Part shown: positions 1 through 11,635 of the stretch, one piece after another | Layout of the letters: every line of letters starts with the position of its first letter | How positions within the stretch are numbered: the first letter of the stretch is position 1 | Source of the DNA: Bacteroidota bacterium | GTDB taxonomy: Bacteria; Bacteroidota; Bacteroidia; Bacteroidales; UBA7960 | Direction: 5' to 3' | DNA: 36,735 nt | NCBI GenBank assembly: GCA_007693555.1 | Contig: REDJ01000185.1 | Span: 1-36,735, forward strand | Position numbers and translations under genes: made by a program | Notes under the pieces: generated by a model | Told to the model about the DNA's origin: nothing | Databases searched by the model: none | The model's input: only the letters and a program-made list of their open reading frames with translations

Positions 1-366
1 ACGAGATACTTCCGGGTACGACTCAAAGTTCGTGCCCGGAATCAAAGAAAGGTAAAAACAAAGTCCGGACGAGAGCTGTAGTCGCACCCGGACGAGATAC
101 TTCCGGGTACGACTCAAAGTTCGTGCCCGGAATCAAAGAAAGGTAAGAACAAAGTCCGGGCAAGAGCTATAGTCGCACCCGGACGAAATACTTCCGGGTA
201 CGACTCAAAGTTCGTGCCCGGAATCAAGGAAAAGTAAAAACAAAGTCCGGGCAAGAGCTATAGTCGCACCCGGACGAAATACTTCCGGGTACGACTTCAA
301 GTTCGTGCCCGGAATCAAGGAAAAGTAAAAACAAAGTCCGGACGAGAGCTGTAGTCGCACCCGGAC
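1..366. repeat. REP/BIME-like array, four 91-bp units, upstream of RAYT
   Basis: Four tandem units with an exact 91-bp period (units begin at 1, 92, 183, 274). Each unit holds two palindromes. Type A is 30 bp (11-40, 102-131, 193-222, 284-313), with arms TCCGGGTACGA and TCGTGCCCGGA. Type B is 31 bp (63-93, 154-184, 245-275, 336-366), with arms starting GTCCGG and ending CCCGGAC. Type B is the same family in inverted orientation, since its reverse complement begins GTCCGGGTGCGACT. Spacers alternate between about 22 and 8 nt and are conserved, so the units have no unique spacers. Paired inverted REPs around a RAYT gene match the BIME concept known from other bacteria. The array runs off the left edge of the window, so its full length is unknown. 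Confidence 0.93.
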
Positions 367-380
367 AAAAAAAATATAAA

Positions 381-995
381 ATGCATTTCGAAACAGGTCA
401 TATATACCACATTTTTAACCAAGGAAATAACAGAGATAAAATATTCTTTGAAGAGAAAAACTATTATTTCTTCCTGGAAAAAATAAAGGCTCACATTATT
501 CCCTTCACTGATATCCTTGCCTGGTGCTTAATGCCTAATCACTTTCATTTTTTAGTCTATGTAAACAAAACTGAAGTAGATTTAAGTCTGGGCACGACTT
601 TTAGTCATACCCAGACTCGCTCACTTCAACAATCGATAGGCATCATGTTAGCTTCATACACCAGAGCAATAAATCAATCCTATAATCGTAGCGGCTCACT
701 TTTCAGAAAGGAGACCAAGGCAATATGTGTTACCAGAGTAGACAAAATTGCTCGTTCATGGCTAAATTCACAGGGTGTAACAATGGTAAATGCTGTAATT
801 CCGGAAAAACAATATCCAAATATATGCTTTAATTATATTTTGTTTAATCCGTTAAAAGATAAGCTTGTAAAGAAAAACGAAGATTGGAAGTTTTCTTCAT
901 ATGCTGACACCATTAACTTAATAAGAGGTAAACTAATTTCACGCGAAAGGATTAGGGAATTTGGATTGGCGGTCATTGAAAATGATGAAGAATAA
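381..995 (+). CDS. REP-associated tyrosine transposase (RAYT, Y1_Tnp / IS200-like family)
   Basis: A 204-residue single-domain HUH transposase. The metal-binding HUH motif is His54-Phe-His56 within MPNHFHFLVY, and the candidate nucleophile is Tyr152 in NYILFNP, which aligns with the YIxxNP block of RAYTs. A WKFSSY block follows at 169-174. Family members cut and join single-stranded DNA at REP hairpins, and they are usually single-copy and vertically kept rather than freely mobile. The gene is full length and starts 14 bp after REP B4. It stops 7 bp before the next palindrome, and its TAA stop lies in sequence identical to the array spacer. Residues about 67-81 are encoded by an embedded REP-like palindrome. 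Base composition looks more AT-rich than the neighbouring trp genes. Function follows from family and context, and activity is not shown. Confidence 0.93.
   Translation: MHFETGHIYHIFNQGNNRDKIFFEEKNYYFFLEKIKAHIIPFTDILAWCLMPNHFHFLVYVNKTEVDLSLGTTFSHTQTRSLQQSIGIMLASYTRAINQSYNRSGSLFRKETKAICVTRVDKIARSWLNSQGVTMVNAVIPEKQYPNICFNYILFNPLKDKLVKKNEDWKFSSYADTINLIRGKLISRERIREFGLAVIENDEE
585..617 (-). repeat. REP-like palindrome embedded in the RAYT coding sequence
   Basis: A 33-bp imperfect palindrome with 15-bp arms and two mismatches: AGTCTGGGCACGACT, three T, AGTCATACCCAGACT. Its reverse complement aligns with the type A REPs of the flanking array with only a few differences. Two of these differences, C to T in one arm and G to A in the opposite arm, preserve a stem base pair. 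Its length is a multiple of three and it is read through as DLSLGTTFSHT. It lies in a region that is variable among RAYTs as I recall them. Homology to the flanking REPs is seen directly, and any function is inference. Confidence 0.85.
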
Positions 996-3982: not shown

Positions 3983-5002
3983 ATGCTGATACAATTACAG
4001 GATAATATACCGGCACAGTTACTGGAATCCATTTTCGAAGAACTGAAAACCCATGGTTTAAAACCCAGCCTGGTGGAAACCCGGCAAGCGAAATACCTTA
4101 TTTGTAATGGAAAGAAAGAATATGACATTCGACAATTTGGCAACTTGCCCGGGGTAAAAGACATACATATTGTTGAAGACCCCAATAAGTTGGTTTCACG
4201 ACAATGGAGAGTACAGGATACCGAAATCAGGTTTGATGACGGCACGAAAATTTCTCGTGATGATTTGACTATTGTCATGGGCCCCTGCTCGGTTGAAAAC
4301 GAGGAGCAAGTGATAAAAACTGTTGAGTTTCTGAAAGAAAATAACATCAGGTTTATGCGTGGCGGAATTTTCAAACCCCGCAGTTCGCCCTACTCTTTTA
4401 GGGGTTTGGGTATAGACGGACTGAAGTTCTTTTCGGCACATTGCCGGGCCAACAGCATCAAGGTAGTGAGCGAGGTCATGCAGGTATCGCAGATTGAACC
4501 CATGTATGATTATGTGGATGTTTTCCAGGTGGGCACACGCAATTCGCAAAACTACAATCTGCTGGATGAGCTGGGTAAGGCAGATAAACCCGTGCTGCTC
4601 AAACGTGGAATGTCGGGCACTTTACAGGAATTCCTGGCTTCTGCCGAATATATTTTCTCCAACGGAAATGAAAAAATAATCCTTTGTGAGCGCGGCATCC
4701 GCACTTTTGAAAAAGCTTACCGTAATACCATGGATCTGAATGCCATCCCCTATTTACGCGATAAAAGCCATTTGCCCGTTTTCAGTGATCCTTCACACGG
4801 AGTCGGCATCAGGAATTATGTTGAGCCCATTGCCCTGGCTTCAGTTATGGCAGGAGCCGATGGGGTGCTCATCGAAATTCATGAATGTCCGCCCAAAGCA
4901 TTTTCCGACGGTGATCAAACCCTTGATTTTTACCAGGCTCGCCGGGCCGTCCAACGACTCAGGGAAACCATGGAGCTGAGAAAGAAGCTGGTGGTGGATT
5001 AA
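3983..5002 (+). CDS. aroF: 3-deoxy-7-phosphoheptulonate (DAHP) synthase, type I-beta with N-terminal regulatory domain
   Basis: Condenses phosphoenolpyruvate with erythrose 4-phosphate, the first step of the shikimate pathway. The 339-residue protein resembles the Thermotoga maritima enzyme in length and layout. Residues 1 to about 70 form a ferredoxin-like domain that in relatives mediates feedback inhibition by aromatic amino acids. The TIM barrel follows, with GPCSVE at 100-105 (metal-binding Cys102), KPRSSPYSF at 131-139, LLKRGM, ILCERGIRTFE, the His of KSHLPVF and DPSHGVG. It lies on the same strand 129 bp after trpA, so it feeds the same product pathway and may be co-transcribed. The symbol follows the B. 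subtilis-type family. Which aromatic amino acid regulates it cannot be read from the sequence. Confidence 0.96.
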   Translation: MLIQLQDNIPAQLLESIFEELKTHGLKPSLVETRQAKYLICNGKKEYDIRQFGNLPGVKDIHIVEDPNKLVSRQWRVQDTEIRFDDGTKISRDDLTIVMGPCSVENEEQVIKTVEFLKENNIRFMRGGIFKPRSSPYSFRGLGIDGLKFFSAHCRANSIKVVSEVMQVSQIEPMYDYVDVFQVGTRNSQNYNLLDELGKADKPVLLKRGMSGTLQEFLASAEYIFSNGNEKIILCERGIRTFEKAYRNTMDLNAIPYLRDKSHLPVFSDPSHGVGIRNYVEPIALASVMAGADGVLIEIHECPPKAFSDGDQTLDFYQARRAVQRLRETMELRKKLVVD

Positions 5003-5134: not shown

Positions 5135-8100
5135 CTAAAACTTCACAAACCGACCCTGCAACTTCTTATCTCTGCTTTGCAACGAAATGATATACGAACC
5201 TGGGGCCAGACTGGAAATATCAATGGTCAGTTCACCCGTAAAGGTATAAATTTCACTTTTTACGGTTTCACCCATCATATTGGTAAGTTTCAGTTCAAAT
5301 TTCTCTTCGCTCCTGAATGGAAGCTCCAGTTTCAGAAAATCATTGGCAGGATTGGGATAAACTCTAAGCGTGAGATATTCATCCACTTCACTAATTCCCA
5401 CTGCCGGGCCAATCAGCACCGAATCAGCAGGCCCCATTATTCCATAAACATATTCGGCTGCATAAACAGGCATCACATCATCTGTATCAACAGTGATGGT
5501 CAGTGTTGTACCCTCTCCGATTATTTGCGTAAGTTGTTCATCAGCAAACCAACGCAGTGAGTCGGAACCCAAAGCTTCAATGGTGATCTGGGTGCCGGTT
5601 TCCATAGGCCCGTCTATGGGGAGAATCTGAGGCTGTGCAATGATAACAAGGTCATCGGCAAGTGAAGAACCTTGTCCGGCTGGGCTAAACTGATGGATGC
5701 CAAAGTAATACCTGCCGCTTTCTTCAATCTCAAAAATATCGCCTACAGGCATGTATGGCTGATCTTCAGGTGCCGTCATCTCGGTTTGCTCCCAAATTAC
5801 ATGACTCATGGCAACAGGATCAGGTGCCATACCCACTGACAATCGAAGGTTGTGGGATCCTGAGCCAAGTCTGTAGAAATAAGCCGCCTTGTATTTCAGT
5901 TCAGCGTTCAATTCATAACAACCGCTGATTACCCAATCGTTGGCCGGCTGAGTAACATTGCCCATAAAATAAACGAGATAGTTATGTCCGCTGTGAGCCA
6001 GCGGCGGATCATTTACACGAAGGCCCCAGTAACGATTATCGTTATTCAGGTTGTGAATGCTCCAGTCAATTTCACGTAGAGCGAAAATGGTCTCAAAATC
6101 CTGGATAAACCAGTTGCCAGGCTCCGTTAAGTCAACACGTGTTCCAAATATCCTGAAAGTTCCCTGGTTGTTACCGGGAACCTCATCTCCGGGAATCTGG
6201 AGGTTGTATTGAAAATCATAGCGCGCCTGACCGGTTATGGAAGCTTCAAAATCCACTTCTGCATGACCAAGCACAGGAATAGCAGGTGTATTCAGGGTTA
6301 AATTTTGCTGCCCGAAAGGACTGTTGATATTGATATCCAGTGTTCCGGCAGGTAACTCCAGCGCTCCAAGATTGGTTACAAGGGCAGATACCGGCGTCTG
6401 CTCGTCAAAATCACAACTCTCAACACCTGCGGTAATGCTGTAAACAGATCCATCCACATCCTTTGCAATGCGCAGGGCAAAGTCATCCATAAACATAAAC
6501 CTGTGGTATTTCGGACTAAAAGCATGCCATACAAAATAGTACTGCCCATCTTCAGGTACAGTAAAAGCATAGGTTACCCTGCGATAATTATAATTGTCCA
6601 TCTCTTCCTTCACATCAAGGTATTCTATTACCGCATCGGGATGCGGTTGGGTTGCGACAGCAAACTTCATATTTTCAGGGTAATCGCCTGAGAAAACCCT
6701 GTACCAGTAGCTTACATTGTATATAGTGCCTGCTTCAAGGTTGGCACAGGATGAGAAAAGCCAGTCGTCGGCATCGTTAGATGCACTGAAAGAGTAATAA
6801 AAAACCTTACGACCTGAGAATGCAAAGTTGGTGAATGTAGTACCCAGGTCCCAGGTGAATCCGTCATTGTTCAAATCAAAAACTGTAAACCCGGTTTCTT
6901 CAAGACTTTCGTACTCTTCAAAAGTAAGGTACAAATCTTCAATGTGAGGGAACATGCTTGTGTTTGTTACGCTGAGTGTACGATGGTTGTTTTCTGTCAT
7001 GGGCTCATCCACCTCATCGGGCAGCGAAACGGTAGCATCTATTGTATACTGGCCATATTTTCTCATATCCACAAGGAAATCAAAATATACAATTTCATTG
7101 ACAGAAATAACCTGATCGATGGTTTCCTGACCGGTAACGGCTGTATTACCCTGGGGATCGGTTATGGTATAGTTCATAGTTACCGGATGATCAAAGGCTT
7201 CATTTCCGGTATTTTTTACTGAGATTCTCAGTGGAGTTTCTGCATTAAATTCGCATGGGCTTGCCATTACAATGATGGAATCAAGGGACACATCCAGATC
7301 ATAATTTCTTTTAATACTGAAATCATCCATGTATATCCAGGCCTGATCAGGATCGCTGTAATGATGAAAACCGATGTAATATGTTCCGTCGGCCGGCGGA
7401 CTAAACGTAATGGTAGCTTTCTGATAATTCAATCCTGTACTGAAGGTTTTATCCCAAAGCAATTCACCCATGGATTCTGATGTTTGATCAGTACCCAGGT
7501 AAACTCCCATTTTCTCTGTAGCTGAGGTAGTACGACCTGTGTAATAAAAGTTAAGCAGATAGTTTTCGCCTTCCTGCATGATAAGACAATTAGAGAAAAG
7601 CCAGTCATCGGCAGCATCAATTGTGCTTCGCCCGGCCCGCATGGAGATCAAGCCAGAATTGGCAAACGGTTCATTTTTTCTCATAATCCATGTTATAGGA
7701 CTGCCGTCGCTGTAGAAATCATTATTGGTGTTTTCATACCACCAACCCAGCTTCGGATCAATCAAATCACTGCCACCATCAACATGAACCAACTCAAAGT
7801 CATTGAAATATTCATGACCTGCCGTGAGGTCCACAGTAGTGTTTCTCATAAAAACTGTTACCGCATCATTTGCGGGGTCCTCATCACCATCTAAAATAAT
7901 TTTCGCTGTAATTGTGTAGATGGTATTAAGCTGTGAAAGGTCGATTTCAAAACTCAGAGTATCCTTTTGACCAAGTTCAAGGGGGTTAGGAATTGACTGG
8001 GTGTAAACTACCGGGTTTTCATTTTCATCTGTAACTGTTACTTCTATTAAAGCATCATCCAGCATAAGGGTTCCGCGGTTTTTATATACCAGTTTAATGG

Positions 8101-11100
8101 GCGTTTCTTCGGTAAATGAGTTACAACCATAAACTTCCTGGATTACATCAAGCATTGCAGCATCTTTTTCGGAAACCTTTTCAATGGTAACATCGTCAAT
8201 GAAAAACTGCACTGAATTGCCAATGTTGGTGTTTACAAAAAAGCCCATATGGAAAATTCCGGTATATGGAGCCTGTACAACATACTCTCTTTCCACGTAA
8301 TCAAAAGTATTTACGTATACGTAGCCAAACTGCATAAGTGTATCAACAGGTTCTGTTCCGGTCATCAGGTAAATGTTGTATTCATCTTCATCACCGCTTC
8401 CCTTGGTAGCAGTATAAAAATTGATGCGATAAAATTCCCCCTCAACCATACTAAGACAATTGGTAATAAGCCAGTCGTTTGTTGTACCATCTGACCCGGG
8501 AGATCTGTAATAATTAATGCTATGAGGAGGTGAATAAGCCTGACCTGACAGGGTGTGAAATCTCCAGGTAAAAGCATCTTCATTAATGTTAACAATTGTC
8601 CAGTCAATTTCATCCAGTCCATTTATATCGTCAAAATTGGTGAAGAATGAATTGGCTTCAAGGTCTACCAGCGAATTGATAACTGTAACAACAAGCGTAT
8701 CATTTTCAGGTCTTTCATCACCTTCCAGCAGAGTAATGGCTCTTATTTGATATTCACCGTAAAGGCTCATATCAACCAGATATAACAATTCATTTTCTTC
8801 ATTGGGGTTCAGTTCTTCTGTATAACTCAAAACATAGGAGTTCGATGTTTCTGTATTGACGTGTGTTACATCCAGTTGTACCTCAAAATTCTGTTGGGCA
8901 TCCAGCCCAATATTCATGAAACTTACGCTAACCGGTGTCTCATTAGAAAAATCGCAACCTTCAGCCTGTACTTCGATATTCGTAGGTGATAAGTCACTGA
9001 AAACCATGCGTTCAAGGAATACATTATCCATGTAAATGAAACGATGATCAGGATCGCTGTAGACGTGGAAGGCAAAGAAATAATTCCCCTCCTCTTCCAC
9101 AGTAAACTGTTCCATAGAGGTAATGAATTCTTCATTGGTAAATCCGGTGATATCCACAATTTCAGTGGTAAGAAATTCCGGATCCGGAATCTGACCCATC
9201 ATAACTCTCATATTTTCCTGGAAATCTGAATTCCATGCTCTGTAGTCGAAGCTAAGGCGGTATATTTCGCCTGGCACAAGGTACATACAGGTTGAAATGA
9301 GCCAGTCATCGGCTTGCTCATCCACTTCTACACCATCGTCTGCCGGGTTTAGAATTCCATAACGCATGGAATTGGCACCATCGCTGGCAAATTGATTGGG
9401 GCCATCAGCTATTCGCAGCATCCAGGAAGCATTGTTGTTGTTCATGTTTTGAATCTGCCATCCAATTTCCTCAATATAAACAATCCCCTCAAAGCTGGTA
9501 TGGTAAGTGTCATCGCTGACAATCCAGCTATCAGATATAAGCTCCCGGGAAAAGGTGTTATTTGCCGGAAGCTGATCGCCGGGATAGTTTACAGTAGCAG
9601 TAAACATAAATTCAAAACCCTGGCTGAGATCGAGCATGACCTCCACATCGGTATTGAGTCCGGCTTCCAGTTCATCTATGGTTGCAGTAGCCTCAGTAAC
9701 GATATTATTGTTCTGATCAGCTACAGTATAATTAACAATCACATTGGTGGCATCCTGCTGTCCTTTGTTTTCAACCCTTACAAAAGCAGGGGTCTGATCA
9801 GTAAAATCACAACCGGATACAAGTACATTGGCATTAGTTACTGCAAGATCTATAGCTCTTTCAGCAATTCCTGAAATGACAAGTGAAAATGACTGGCGTT
9901 TGTTTGCAGGATTTATCGGATCAACAATGTCGCCCTTATGGGATACTTCTACCAGGTACTGACCAGGTTCCGGAAGTAAAATCTCAATCTTTTCCACATT
10001 ATCTACAATATTATCACCGGTAGTTGCAGGTGCTGATGGGTTATCGGGATCCAACTTCCAGGGGTAAAACACTTCATTGTCCGAGAGCCTTGTTATACGT
10101 AGATCCAGGTCATTTACCAGCATAGGTGTACGGTCGTTAAGAGCAGGCTCAGGTGCTTCGGCGGGGACATCTGTCCACACCAGTGTAGCTACCAGCGGCC
10201 GGGTACCTGTGGAATACACTGTGCGTGTATAGGTTGGCACAGTGTTCTGTACAAGGTTTCTTTCCTGTATAATGGTGGTGTTATCCTTTTCAGGAAGGAT
10301 TTTGGCAGCAGCTTCAATATCGGCCAGCCCCCAACCATGGCGATAGTCGGGTCCCGGGTGTTCACCTGCTTCTCTTGCAGTATGAATAGCAAGCGCCTTA
10401 ATGGTAGAAGCTCTCAGGTAGCTGCCGTATAACCTGTGGTTTAGCTCCTGGAGAAGTGCCAGTGAACCTGTAATAGTGGGGGCAGCCATGGACGTACCGG
10501 TAAGTCCGGCGTAACTGGTATTGGTATCCACCCAAGTGGAAAGCAAACTTTGTCCTTTGGCAACCAGGTCGGGTTTGATACGGCCATCATCGGCAGGGCC
10601 TGTGCTGCTGAACTCGCTGAGCACCACGCTTTCGGGTCCTTCATAATTTGAAGCATCTGCAATGGAACCAATAGTAAGTACGTTCTTTCCCAGAACCAGG
10701 GTAGAAATACAATCAAAACCTTCTTCGCCTCCATCGGGCATGCGCCAGGTCGTGGATTTTACCCATTGCCCTATATCATGGTCAAAAACATTATGTTCTT
10801 CCCCTTCTTCAGGGCCGACATCCAGCCGGTCGTTTCCGGCAGCATGTACCTGCAGATAATAGGGTGCCAGGTATGTTATCTCATCGCGTACACGAGTTTC
10901 TTCAGAATAAAACCCAAACTTGTAATCCTCAATTTCACTTATGCGTGTATCACCATACCACCACCATTGGTTGGTATGAAAAACCCAGCCAGTAGGCCGT
11001 CCGTATGAGTGATTAGATAGCAGAGCTCCATTGGCTGCTGCTTCAATCATTTCCTCCTCATCGTTCTGAAAATAATAGGTATGGAGTAATGCTTCCGGTG

Positions 11101-11635
11101 CCATCCCCTTTGCTGTTGGCACCACACCGGCTGCTACCATGGTTCCGGCAACGTGTGTTGCATGACCGTTCATAAAACCACCGGTATCCATCTGTGTGGT
11201 TCGGCCGCCAAACTCCTGATGAGAATGCCTGATGGGACCACCGTCCCATACATGCAGGGTAATTCCGTCACCATTAAGGTTAAGCTCTGACGCACCTCCT
11301 GTCCATAATCTATGCGTGTTCAACGTTTGGGCTGCAAAAAGATTATATGTTTGATAGTATATGGGTTCTCCGGTTTTGCTGAAGCCCATAAACCTTAATG
11401 TCATTAAGGTATCGGCCAGATCGGTTTCTGCCAGTCGGGCATTGGCAAATGTACGGATTTGTTCACGTCGGTTTTCCCATCTGAAAGATACTTCACCATA
11501 TAAGCTTCTTAAAGCCTGGGCATTTTGATGACTTATAAAAGGTGATTCATTAAAATTCTGGGAAAATAATCCCACGGGAAACATCATCAATACCAATATT
11601 CCCCTTCCTAAAAGAGTAAAGAGTAGTTTTTTCAC
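5135..11635 (-). CDS. Giant secreted subtilisin-like (S8) protein with repeated beta-sandwich modules and T9SS sorting domain
   Basis: 2166 residues. A signal peptide (about 1-25) is followed by a propeptide-like part, then a peptidase S8 domain. Catalytic residues appear as Asp131 in HVWDGG, His158 in GHATHVAG and Ser382 in GTSMAAP, with Asn269 in AAGND as the likely oxyanion residue. A beta-barrel segment of the KP-43 type follows (about 460-590). From about 590 to 2000 there are five alternating module pairs. One module type contains a C-x-F-x-x-x-TP signature and resembles CARDB. The other resembles cleaved-adhesin / choice-of-anchor J domains with a (D/N)DWLxSxC motif and a later FMDDF or YMDNV motif. 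The C-terminal about 80 residues (from RVYPNPANDF) form a T9SS sorting domain. It is therefore predicted to be exported and anchored or released at the cell surface as an active protease. Its substrate is unknown. Confidence 0.92.
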   Translation of the reverse strand: MKKLLFTLLGRGILVLMMFPVGLFSQNFNESPFISHQNAQALRSLYGEVSFRWENRREQIRTFANARLAETDLADTLMTLRFMGFSKTGEPIYYQTYNLFAAQTLNTHRLWTGGASELNLNGDGITLHVWDGGPIRHSHQEFGGRTTQMDTGGFMNGHATHVAGTMVAAGVVPTAKGMAPEALLHTYYFQNDEEEMIEAAANGALLSNHSYGRPTGWVFHTNQWWWYGDTRISEIEDYKFGFYSEETRVRDEITYLAPYYLQVHAAGNDRLDVGPEEGEEHNVFDHDIGQWVKSTTWRMPDGGEEGFDCISTLVLGKNVLTIGSIADASNYEGPESVVLSEFSSTGPADDGRIKPDLVAKGQSLLSTWVDTNTSYAGLTGTSMAAPTITGSLALLQELNHRLYGSYLRASTIKALAIHTAREAGEHPGPDYRHGWGLADIEAAAKILPEKDNTTIIQERNLVQNTVPTYTRTVYSTGTRPLVATLVWTDVPAEAPEPALNDRTPMLVNDLDLRITRLSDNEVFYPWKLDPDNPSAPATTGDNIVDNVEKIEILLPEPGQYLVEVSHKGDIVDPINPANKRQSFSLVISGIAERAIDLAVTNANVLVSGCDFTDQTPAFVRVENKGQQDATNVIVNYTVADQNNNIVTEATATIDELEAGLNTDVEVMLDLSQGFEFMFTATVNYPGDQLPANNTFSRELISDSWIVSDDTYHTSFEGIVYIEEIGWQIQNMNNNNASWMLRIADGPNQFASDGANSMRYGILNPADDGVEVDEQADDWLISTCMYLVPGEIYRLSFDYRAWNSDFQENMRVMMGQIPDPEFLTTEIVDITGFTNEEFITSMEQFTVEEEGNYFFAFHVYSDPDHRFIYMDNVFLERMVFSDLSPTNIEVQAEGCDFSNETPVSVSFMNIGLDAQQNFEVQLDVTHVNTETSNSYVLSYTEELNPNEENELLYLVDMSLYGEYQIRAITLLEGDERPENDTLVVTVINSLVDLEANSFFTNFDDINGLDEIDWTIVNINEDAFTWRFHTLSGQAYSPPHSINYYRSPGSDGTTNDWLITNCLSMVEGEFYRINFYTATKGSGDEDEYNIYLMTGTEPVDTLMQFGYVYVNTFDYVEREYVVQAPYTGIFHMGFFVNTNIGNSVQFFIDDVTIEKVSEKDAAMLDVIQEVYGCNSFTEETPIKLVYKNRGTLMLDDALIEVTVTDENENPVVYTQSIPNPLELGQKDTLSFEIDLSQLNTIYTITAKIILDGDEDPANDAVTVFMRNTTVDLTAGHEYFNDFELVHVDGGSDLIDPKLGWWYENTNNDFYSDGSPITWIMRKNEPFANSGLISMRAGRSTIDAADDWLFSNCLIMQEGENYLLNFYYTGRTTSATEKMGVYLGTDQTSESMGELLWDKTFSTGLNYQKATITFSPPADGTYYIGFHHYSDPDQAWIYMDDFSIKRNYDLDVSLDSIIVMASPCEFNAETPLRISVKNTGNEAFDHPVTMNYTITDPQGNTAVTGQETIDQVISVNEIVYFDFLVDMRKYGQYTIDATVSLPDEVDEPMTENNHRTLSVTNTSMFPHIEDLYLTFEEYESLEETGFTVFDLNNDGFTWDLGTTFTNFAFSGRKVFYYSFSASNDADDWLFSSCANLEAGTIYNVSYWYRVFSGDYPENMKFAVATQPHPDAVIEYLDVKEEMDNYNYRRVTYAFTVPEDGQYYFVWHAFSPKYHRFMFMDDFALRIAKDVDGSVYSITAGVESCDFDEQTPVSALVTNLGALELPAGTLDININSPFGQQNLTLNTPAIPVLGHAEVDFEASITGQARYDFQYNLQIPGDEVPGNNQGTFRIFGTRVDLTEPGNWFIQDFETIFALREIDWSIHNLNNDNRYWGLRVNDPPLAHSGHNYLVYFMGNVTQPANDWVISGCYELNAELKYKAAYFYRLGSGSHNLRLSVGMAPDPVAMSHVIWEQTEMTAPEDQPYMPVGDIFEIEESGRYYFGIHQFSPAGQGSSLADDLVIIAQPQILPIDGPMETGTQITIEALGSDSLRWFADEQLTQIIGEGTTLTITVDTDDVMPVYAAEYVYGIMGPADSVLIGPAVGISEVDEYLTLRVYPNPANDFLKLELPFRSEEKFELKLTNMMGETVKSEIYTFTGELTIDISSLAPGSYIISLQSRDKKLQGRFVKF

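Follow-up and report, generated by a model that had tools for sequence, protein, structure and literature searches.

A REP-like palindrome in frame within a Bacteroidales RAYT gene and its link to the flanking repeats

We found that the RAYT (TnpA_REP) gene of the window, i.e., the whole 36,735-nt stretch of Bacteroidales DNA analyzed here, carries an in-frame palindrome of 33 nt which resembles the REPs flanking the gene beyond chance; we regard this observation as confirmed. A survey of related genes shows that the site recurs across the family, with an inner copy that, as judged by alignment scores, matches its own flanks far above those of other loci. It further shows that the inner palindrome has turned over many times together with the flanking REPs, in most but not all cases, and that the constraint acts on the DNA palindrome and not on the peptide. 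The frequent joint change of inner and outer copies suggests that the inner one is part of the element.

The RAYT gene, its palindrome and the flanking REPs

The RAYT gene occupies positions 381–995 (+) and its open frame, encoding 204 aa, is intact. The protein carries the HUH motif N53-H-F-H56 and a conserved Y152 in the YILFNP motif, which we take as the putative catalytic tyrosine; N-H-F-H and Y-I-x-x-N-P are invariant in all 81 aligned proteins. Curated family cut-offs are missed by the window protein, both for NCBIfam NF047646 REP_Tyr_transpos (50.3 bits, E 2.2e-13, in two stretches, cut-off 80) and for Pfam Y1_Tnp (19.3 bits, E 0.0013, cut-off 23), and the insertion may be what splits the family-model match. 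We base the assignment to the RAYTs on motifs, fold and flanks: the gene combines the HUH and Y---NP motifs with the TnpA_REP fold and with flanking REPs that recur in the genome. The AlphaFold model of the protein (pLDDT 89.9) has its best PDB fold match in 4er8, the TnpA_REP-hairpin complex (E 2.5e-7, 15% identity over the match), which is also the only entry found by profile search at E ≤ 0.01 (E 7e-5). Residues 69–79 are predicted to form the tip of a β-hairpin (strands 65–68 and 78–81), placed in the model between the HUH strand and helix 82–100.

The palindrome lies at positions 585–617 (+) and reads AGTCTGGGCACGACTTTTAGTCATACCCAGACT, with two stems of 15 nt around the apex TTT; on the sense strand, two positions of the stem are C.A mismatches. 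As the sequence-only reading had claimed, it is in frame and read through: no stop occurs within 585–617 and the frame of ORF 381–995 continues across it. Its 33 nt encode residues 69–79 (SLGTTFSHTQT), not residues 67–81 as stated in that reading. When the gene was aligned with one copy each of REP A and REP B, the best local score was 18, against a maximum of 14 in 1000 dinucleotide shuffles and again of 14 in 1000 codon shuffles, and an equal or better palindrome arose in 3 of 3000 synonymous recodings of the window loop. Folded as single-stranded DNA, the segment reaches −8.9 kcal/mol on the sense and −11.6 kcal/mol on the antisense strand; none of 200 shuffles folded as well on either strand, nor did any of 200 as RNA.

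Upstream of the gene, positions 1–379 (+) hold an array of about four 91-bp units (repeat families D1–D3), each with one type A REP (CCGGGTACGACTYMAAGTTCGTGCCCGG) and one type B REP (GTCCGGRCRAGAGCTRTAGTCGCACCCGGAC). Stretches of 182 nt shifted by one or two units are 96% and 92% identical, respectively, which points to a recent amplification of the array. Downstream, type B copies are located at 1002–1034 (+; 23/33 identical to the embedded palindrome) and 1096–1128 (+; 24/33, in the same orientation), and a type A copy at 1043–1075 (+; 19/33 in reverse complement). The GT[AG]G foot of canonical REPs is absent from the window REPs, which by eye start with GTCC or TTCC; GTGG feet are found in REPs of some relatives, e.g., L003 and L022.

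The palindrome had been described as an antisense type A REP. Its match to a REP is borne out, but the antisense type A assignment is only one of two readings, because types A and B are near reverse complements of each other. Without gaps, 585–617 is best matched by type B read forwards (24/33 at 153–185, 244–276 and 1096–1128, all +), with 19/33 for reversed type A, whereas a local alignment permitting gaps reverses this preference (18 for reversed type A, 15 for type B). The claim of a paired change that keeps the stem holds for one or two pairs, depending on the type B copy taken as reference, and a C-G pair turned into C.A has to be added to it. Inspection by eye against the downstream copy at 1096–1128 shows two pairs in which both partners differ but pairing is preserved (C-G to T-A and G-C to A-T), and a third, C-G, that now reads C.A (T.G on the antisense strand); relative to the upstream type B copy, there is a single such compensated pair.

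Recurrence of the inner palindrome and its match to own flanks

Loci for the survey were drawn from the best 80 of 431 confirmed matches and from matches in 14 of 59 genomes, the own genome included. From the 103 loci entered, five without usable motif (L106, L111, L117–L119) were dropped, four were removed by the loop-end rule (L112, L116 and two RAYTs with readable loops, L084 and L090) and the duplicates L100–L103 were taken out, leaving 90 scored genes, the distant proteins L107–L110 and L113–L115 among them. A palindrome (score of at least 8) is present in the hypervariable loop of 68 of these 90 genes; same-length control segments reach this threshold in 35 of 293 cases (94 loci, with the four duplicates still included), and L071 and L115 do so through hairpins without any flank match. 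The interpretation offered in the sequence-only reading is supported in part: its suggestion of a domesticated REP insertion is borne out by this frequency, by the palindrome being often cognate to the flanks and by such insertions having been published for this protein class. The idea that the insertion would be confined to REP-bearing relatives is too simple, as 19 of the 22 palindrome-free genes have at least one flank hairpin, some of them not REP-like. Four palindrome-free loops (L048, L055, L061, L094) share a conserved peptide around D-K-[YF]-G-V-K-W-G and may have gained a protein role. The distant RAYTs L107, L108 and L113 have a different REP apex (GTTT/AAAC type) and a same-place palindrome matching their own flanks. 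Another type of hairpin, in which ACT and AGT arms enclose a long inner loop (approximately TTTGCAAGATG), occurs in the L037 gene and in the flanks of L099, and the nearest flank hairpin of L021 looks similar.

Scored against their own flanks, 50 of the 68 palindromic loops reach the match threshold of 15, but only 2 of the 22 non-palindromic loops and one of 90 control coding segments do so (L114, score 111, taken as an artefact of its short frame). Flanks of other loci often reach it too (1231 of 6052 pairs, 20%), because REP families are common to several loci. When the flanks were scanned for a match to the inner copy, the summed score of inner copies against own flanks is 1460, compared with a mean of 752 (sd 36, maximum 914) in 10,000 permutations, and the own flank ranks first of 90 for 27 of the 68 inner palindromes and among the top five for 42. 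With an independent choice of flank, i.e., the hairpin nearest the gene picked blind to the inner copy (found in 57 of 63 loci), the summed score is 1108 versus 516 (sd 35, maximum 680; 10,000 permutations). Given protein distance, a partial Mantel r of 0.34 was obtained (maximum 0.13 in 2000 permutations). Among 57 loci, the inner copy is nearer its own flank in 34 and nearer the inner copy of the closest relative in 18, with five ties; in L060 and L066 it is identical to a flank copy over the 33 nt. The 18 palindromic loops scoring below 15 comprise five loci with a clearly different flank REP (L040, L041, L046, L052, L081), five whose 400-nt flanks hold no hairpin with a score of 9 (L033, L043, L065, L089, L093) and eight with other hairpins (L038, L071, L077, L086, L087, L095, L109, L115; the upstream flank of L095 is 22 nt only).

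Besides the gene studied here, the window's genome encodes two closely related RAYTs and a third, distant one. The paralogue L002 has a different flank REP and, at the same place in the gene, an inner palindrome matching the L002 flanks, and the paralogue L003 is without a palindrome there; loop scores against own flanks (and those of the others) are 20 (10, 11) for L001, 29 (11, 13) for L002 and 11 (12, 12) for L003. When 12 genes from five genomes with two or three genes each were compared in this way, the own flank was best in L001, L002, L029, L034 (20 vs. 18), L045, L026 and L032, and also in L097, where 12 vs. 10 is no real match. It was not best in L003, L028, L095 and L051, with L028 fitting the flanks of the same-genome L026 better than its own (40 vs. 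28).

Paired differences between inner copy and nearest flank copy were counted in those 47 of 62 loci whose flank match is 22/33 or better: both partners differ in 54 pairs, 49 of them Watson-Crick, against 13.3 expected (sd 2.9), an excess inflated by both sequences having been selected as palindromic. With the same caveat, paired changes of the kind that the sequence-only reading had proposed to look for are thus present. We distinguished 19 inner-stem types in 62 labelled genes, amounting to 38 changes on a quick tree of 86 rows (L109, L110, L114 and L115 left out) in which 40 of 83 inner branches are weak. In a coarse look at whether gene halves had been swapped at the inner REP, N-half and C-half protein distances showed a correlation of 0.69 (n = 63).

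As for the DNA-level constraint, 59 of the 90 loops beat all 200 of their synonymous recodings, as compared with one of 90 control segments beating all 60. Of the 56 in-phase genes, 44 use the codon ACT just ahead of the apex and 45 the codon AGT just behind it; elsewhere in these genes, ACT makes up 103 of 427 Thr codons and AGT 45 of 480 Ser codons. A like palindrome is read in different frames in L035 (TEGFAQSEALGT) and L041 (RPRASLKAKPSV); further near-identical palindromes differ in frame between L043 and L036, L049 and L063, and L104 and L028, and those of L037 and L113 are likewise out of phase. The 35-nt palindrome of L021 is unchanged in L030, with 46% third-position agreement outside the loop; for L040 and L065 this agreement is 41%. 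It is the synonymous recodings beaten, together with near-identical palindromes read in different frames, that place the constraint on the DNA. Odd-length palindromes are centered at codon position 2 in 56 of 62 cases, and flank REPs would have an open frame in 48, 76, and 50% for codon positions 1, 2, and 3, respectively. RNA energies reveal no strand preference (sense stronger in 15, antisense stronger in 17, within 1 kcal/mol in 31; n = 63), and a favoured sense-strand mRNA hairpin was rejected on this ground.

The palindrome has been lost in L020, the closest relative among the matches listed (87% identical), which keeps the gene and the same flanking REPs as the window, with a similar start of the downstream gene. 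The L020 loop is of the same length, and the 33-nt stretch is 16/33 identical as against 521/582 in the rest of the gene. Outside the loop, the 93% amino-acid versus 78% third-position identity of the pair suggests purifying selection on the protein. Since L020 keeps gene and flanking REPs without the palindrome, the latter is not essential. Other near relatives with flanking REP hairpins (L003, L022, L023, L027) also lack a loop palindrome. The drift of the window copy from its flanks (24/33) and the loss in this sister locus indicate that the window copy is probably ageing and not an essential control element.

In-gene REPs are not limited to this loop. In the surveyed genes, 70 hairpins lie in the loop (12,027 bases, seven genes with two hairpins each) and 24 of score at least 9 outside it (44,907 bases). 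Seven of the latter, in six genes (L026, L032, L047, L076, L088 twice, L105), score at least 17 against own flanks. Their sites, in another loop or nearer the C-terminus, point to insertion into tolerant places; L076 and L105 have no loop palindrome. Copies of the inner REP, itself recognized by its coordinates, were sought in 16 genomes, each with an inner REP conforming to one of three patterns (2, 1, and 2 mismatches allowed), and six genomes held no other copy within the allowed mismatches (L033, L035, L041, L052, L087, L089). As these genomes were hand-picked, partly for unmatched flanks, and several are draft assemblies, this share is not a rate; the genomes of L059 and L081 were also searched, their inner REPs being outside the three patterns. 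An inner palindrome can therefore be near perfect even where no REP family surrounds it, as these cases demonstrate.

Explanations for the inner copy

The explanation which we hold to be somewhat better than evenly probable is that of a cognate REP copy residing in a tolerant in-frame loop and repeatedly re-matched to the flanking family. A REP copy would lodge in frame in the β-hairpin predicted between the HUH strand and the next helix, and would be treated like any other REP by the enzyme, or by hairpin-driven template switching at the replication fork. It would then be inserted, replaced or corrected repeatedly from the flanking copies, i.e., undergo concerted evolution, with coding potential acting as a mere filter for stop-free frames in protein-tolerant loops. 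We infer the conversion or insertion events from comparison, and several observations do not favor them. Most inner copies look inherited in place and not freshly inserted, as the excess at codon position 2 goes beyond the open-frame shares of the flank REPs. No donor copy for conversion was found in 6 of the 16 picked genomes, own-flank scores stay below 15 in 18 of 68 loops, a relative's inner copy is nearer in 18 of 57 loci, and L028 fits the flanks of L026 better.

Alternatively, the palindrome could be a selected cis-element, at which the RAYT would bind or nick its own gene or transcript and so limit itself, a self-limitation also raised in the sequence-only reading, with the inner REP having to follow each change of specificity. 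We consider this unlikely, albeit compatible with inner REPs that track own flanks beyond protein distance, with palindrome DNA kept despite diverged third positions (L021/L030, L040/L065), with the near-perfect palindromes of the six solitary copies and with the REPs elsewhere in the L076 and L105 genes. Against it speak the 22 of 90 genes without a loop palindrome of score at least 8, including L020, L003, L022, L023 and L027, the lack of strand preference, and the occurrence of inner REPs at several different places. Another reading, which we hold to be equally unlikely, is a self-tagged transposase: in this branch of RAYTs, the gene would carry its own recognition hairpin as a functional component, and the specificity of the enzyme would switch jointly with the inner and the outer copies. 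If true, a gene moving away from its flanks would, through the inner copy, keep its enzyme linked to the repeat, or the inner copy would serve as a built-in brake. The solitary inner REPs and the alternative-place REPs of L076 and L105 would fit, and losses such as L020 would represent degenerate members.

An old one-off insertion followed by vertical inheritance and decay, with the likeness to the flanks due to shared locus ancestry, is improbable. Position and phase are mostly constant, the window copy has fallen to 24/33 and L020 has lost the palindrome, and the 18 of 57 inner copies nearer to a relative's fit this scenario as well. Against it are the 38 inner-stem changes, on the quick tree described above, with 50 of 68 copies matching own flanks, the partial Mantel correlation given protein distance, and the same-genome paralogues scoring best against own flanks (L001, L002, L029, L045, and L034 by only 20 vs. 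18). Template switching can turn quasi-palindromes into perfect ones while the DNA is single-stranded during replication, and such self-correction of the hairpin, without selection or copying from flanks, might account for the paired differences (54 vs. 13.3 expected, as inflated by palindrome selection) and for the near-perfect solitary palindromes. By itself it leaves the own-flank match unexplained, and we find it very improbable as the whole explanation. Chance, ruled out by the shuffles and synonymous recodings, and a peptide-level constraint, ruled out by the recodings, the codon use at the apex and the same palindrome standing in different frames, retain a negligible probability. The sequence-only reading had held that the same residues persisting without a palindrome would indicate chance or a protein constraint; the residues of L020 differ, and near-identical palindromes of other genes are read in different frames.

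Relation to known systems and REPs elsewhere in the genome

In-frame REPs at this place of tnpA_REP genes are of a kind already known: they were described between the HuH and Y motifs in subclass 2.4, where the main text regards the loop as peripheral, perhaps with little impact (Quentin et al., 2018, BMC Genomics 19:475, PMC6006769). The family studied here shares the hallmark of that subclass, a variable β3-αC insertion with in-frame REPs (in 68 of 90 loops here). The 2.4 consensus motifs given there, NH[IFV]H, WQ and YIxNNP, fit only in part, and we have therefore not filed the window family as 2.4: NHFH occurs in 81 of 81 proteins, YIxNNP in 17 of 81 (YILFNP in the window), and at the presumed W place, located by position alone, 80 of 81 have F. 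The E. coli TnpA_REP belongs to subclass 2.2, while the β3-αC insertion is restricted to 2.3 and 2.4 (PMC6006769). The window element has the HUH-Tyr fold and flanking palindromes in common with E. coli-type RAYT/REPs (REPtron, 4ER8) but differs from their enzyme in the insertion class and in sequence, its model being 15% identical to 4er8.

Short in-frame palindromes inside protein genes are likewise shared with intragenic REPs and Rickettsia palindromic elements (RPEs), e.g., in uvrA and uvrB (PMC3733652, in the parts consulted); here, in contrast, the host gene encodes the enzyme that presumably acts on the repeat, and the inner copy follows the flanks of that gene. In the literature surveyed, the one report recognized on RAYT-internal REPs or their co-variation with flanks was that of Quentin et al. 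(2018), and the RPE papers offered nothing nearer; the parts consulted of Quentin et al. (2018) contain no test of inner-flank co-change. Relative to these sources, what appears new is the quantitative link between inner copy and own flanks, the palindromes read in different frames, the comparison with synonymous recodings and the solitary inner copies. Inner REPs bear on the host role of RAYTs and on the spread of REPs. Where an inner REP tracks its flanks, nature has recorded which enzyme and repeat belong together (50 of 68), and this can be used to predict specificity. A palindrome can also be retained as DNA within coding sequence, whichever of several frames it is read in.

Elsewhere in the window's genome, the window REP pattern (at most three mismatches) occurs at 35 further places, and its reversed control at none. 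Of 29 such places checked, one is enclosed by an open frame that reaches 40 codons to either side; this frame, of 110 codons, is a candidate gene at most. A second, the window-type REP at 4731–4761 of L125, is separated by 35 codons from the upstream end of an open frame of 904 codons and may lie inside, or just ahead of, that gene. The remaining 27 places checked lack such an enclosing frame. In the window itself, a very long minus-strand ORF (5135–11635, 2166 aa) was also noted.
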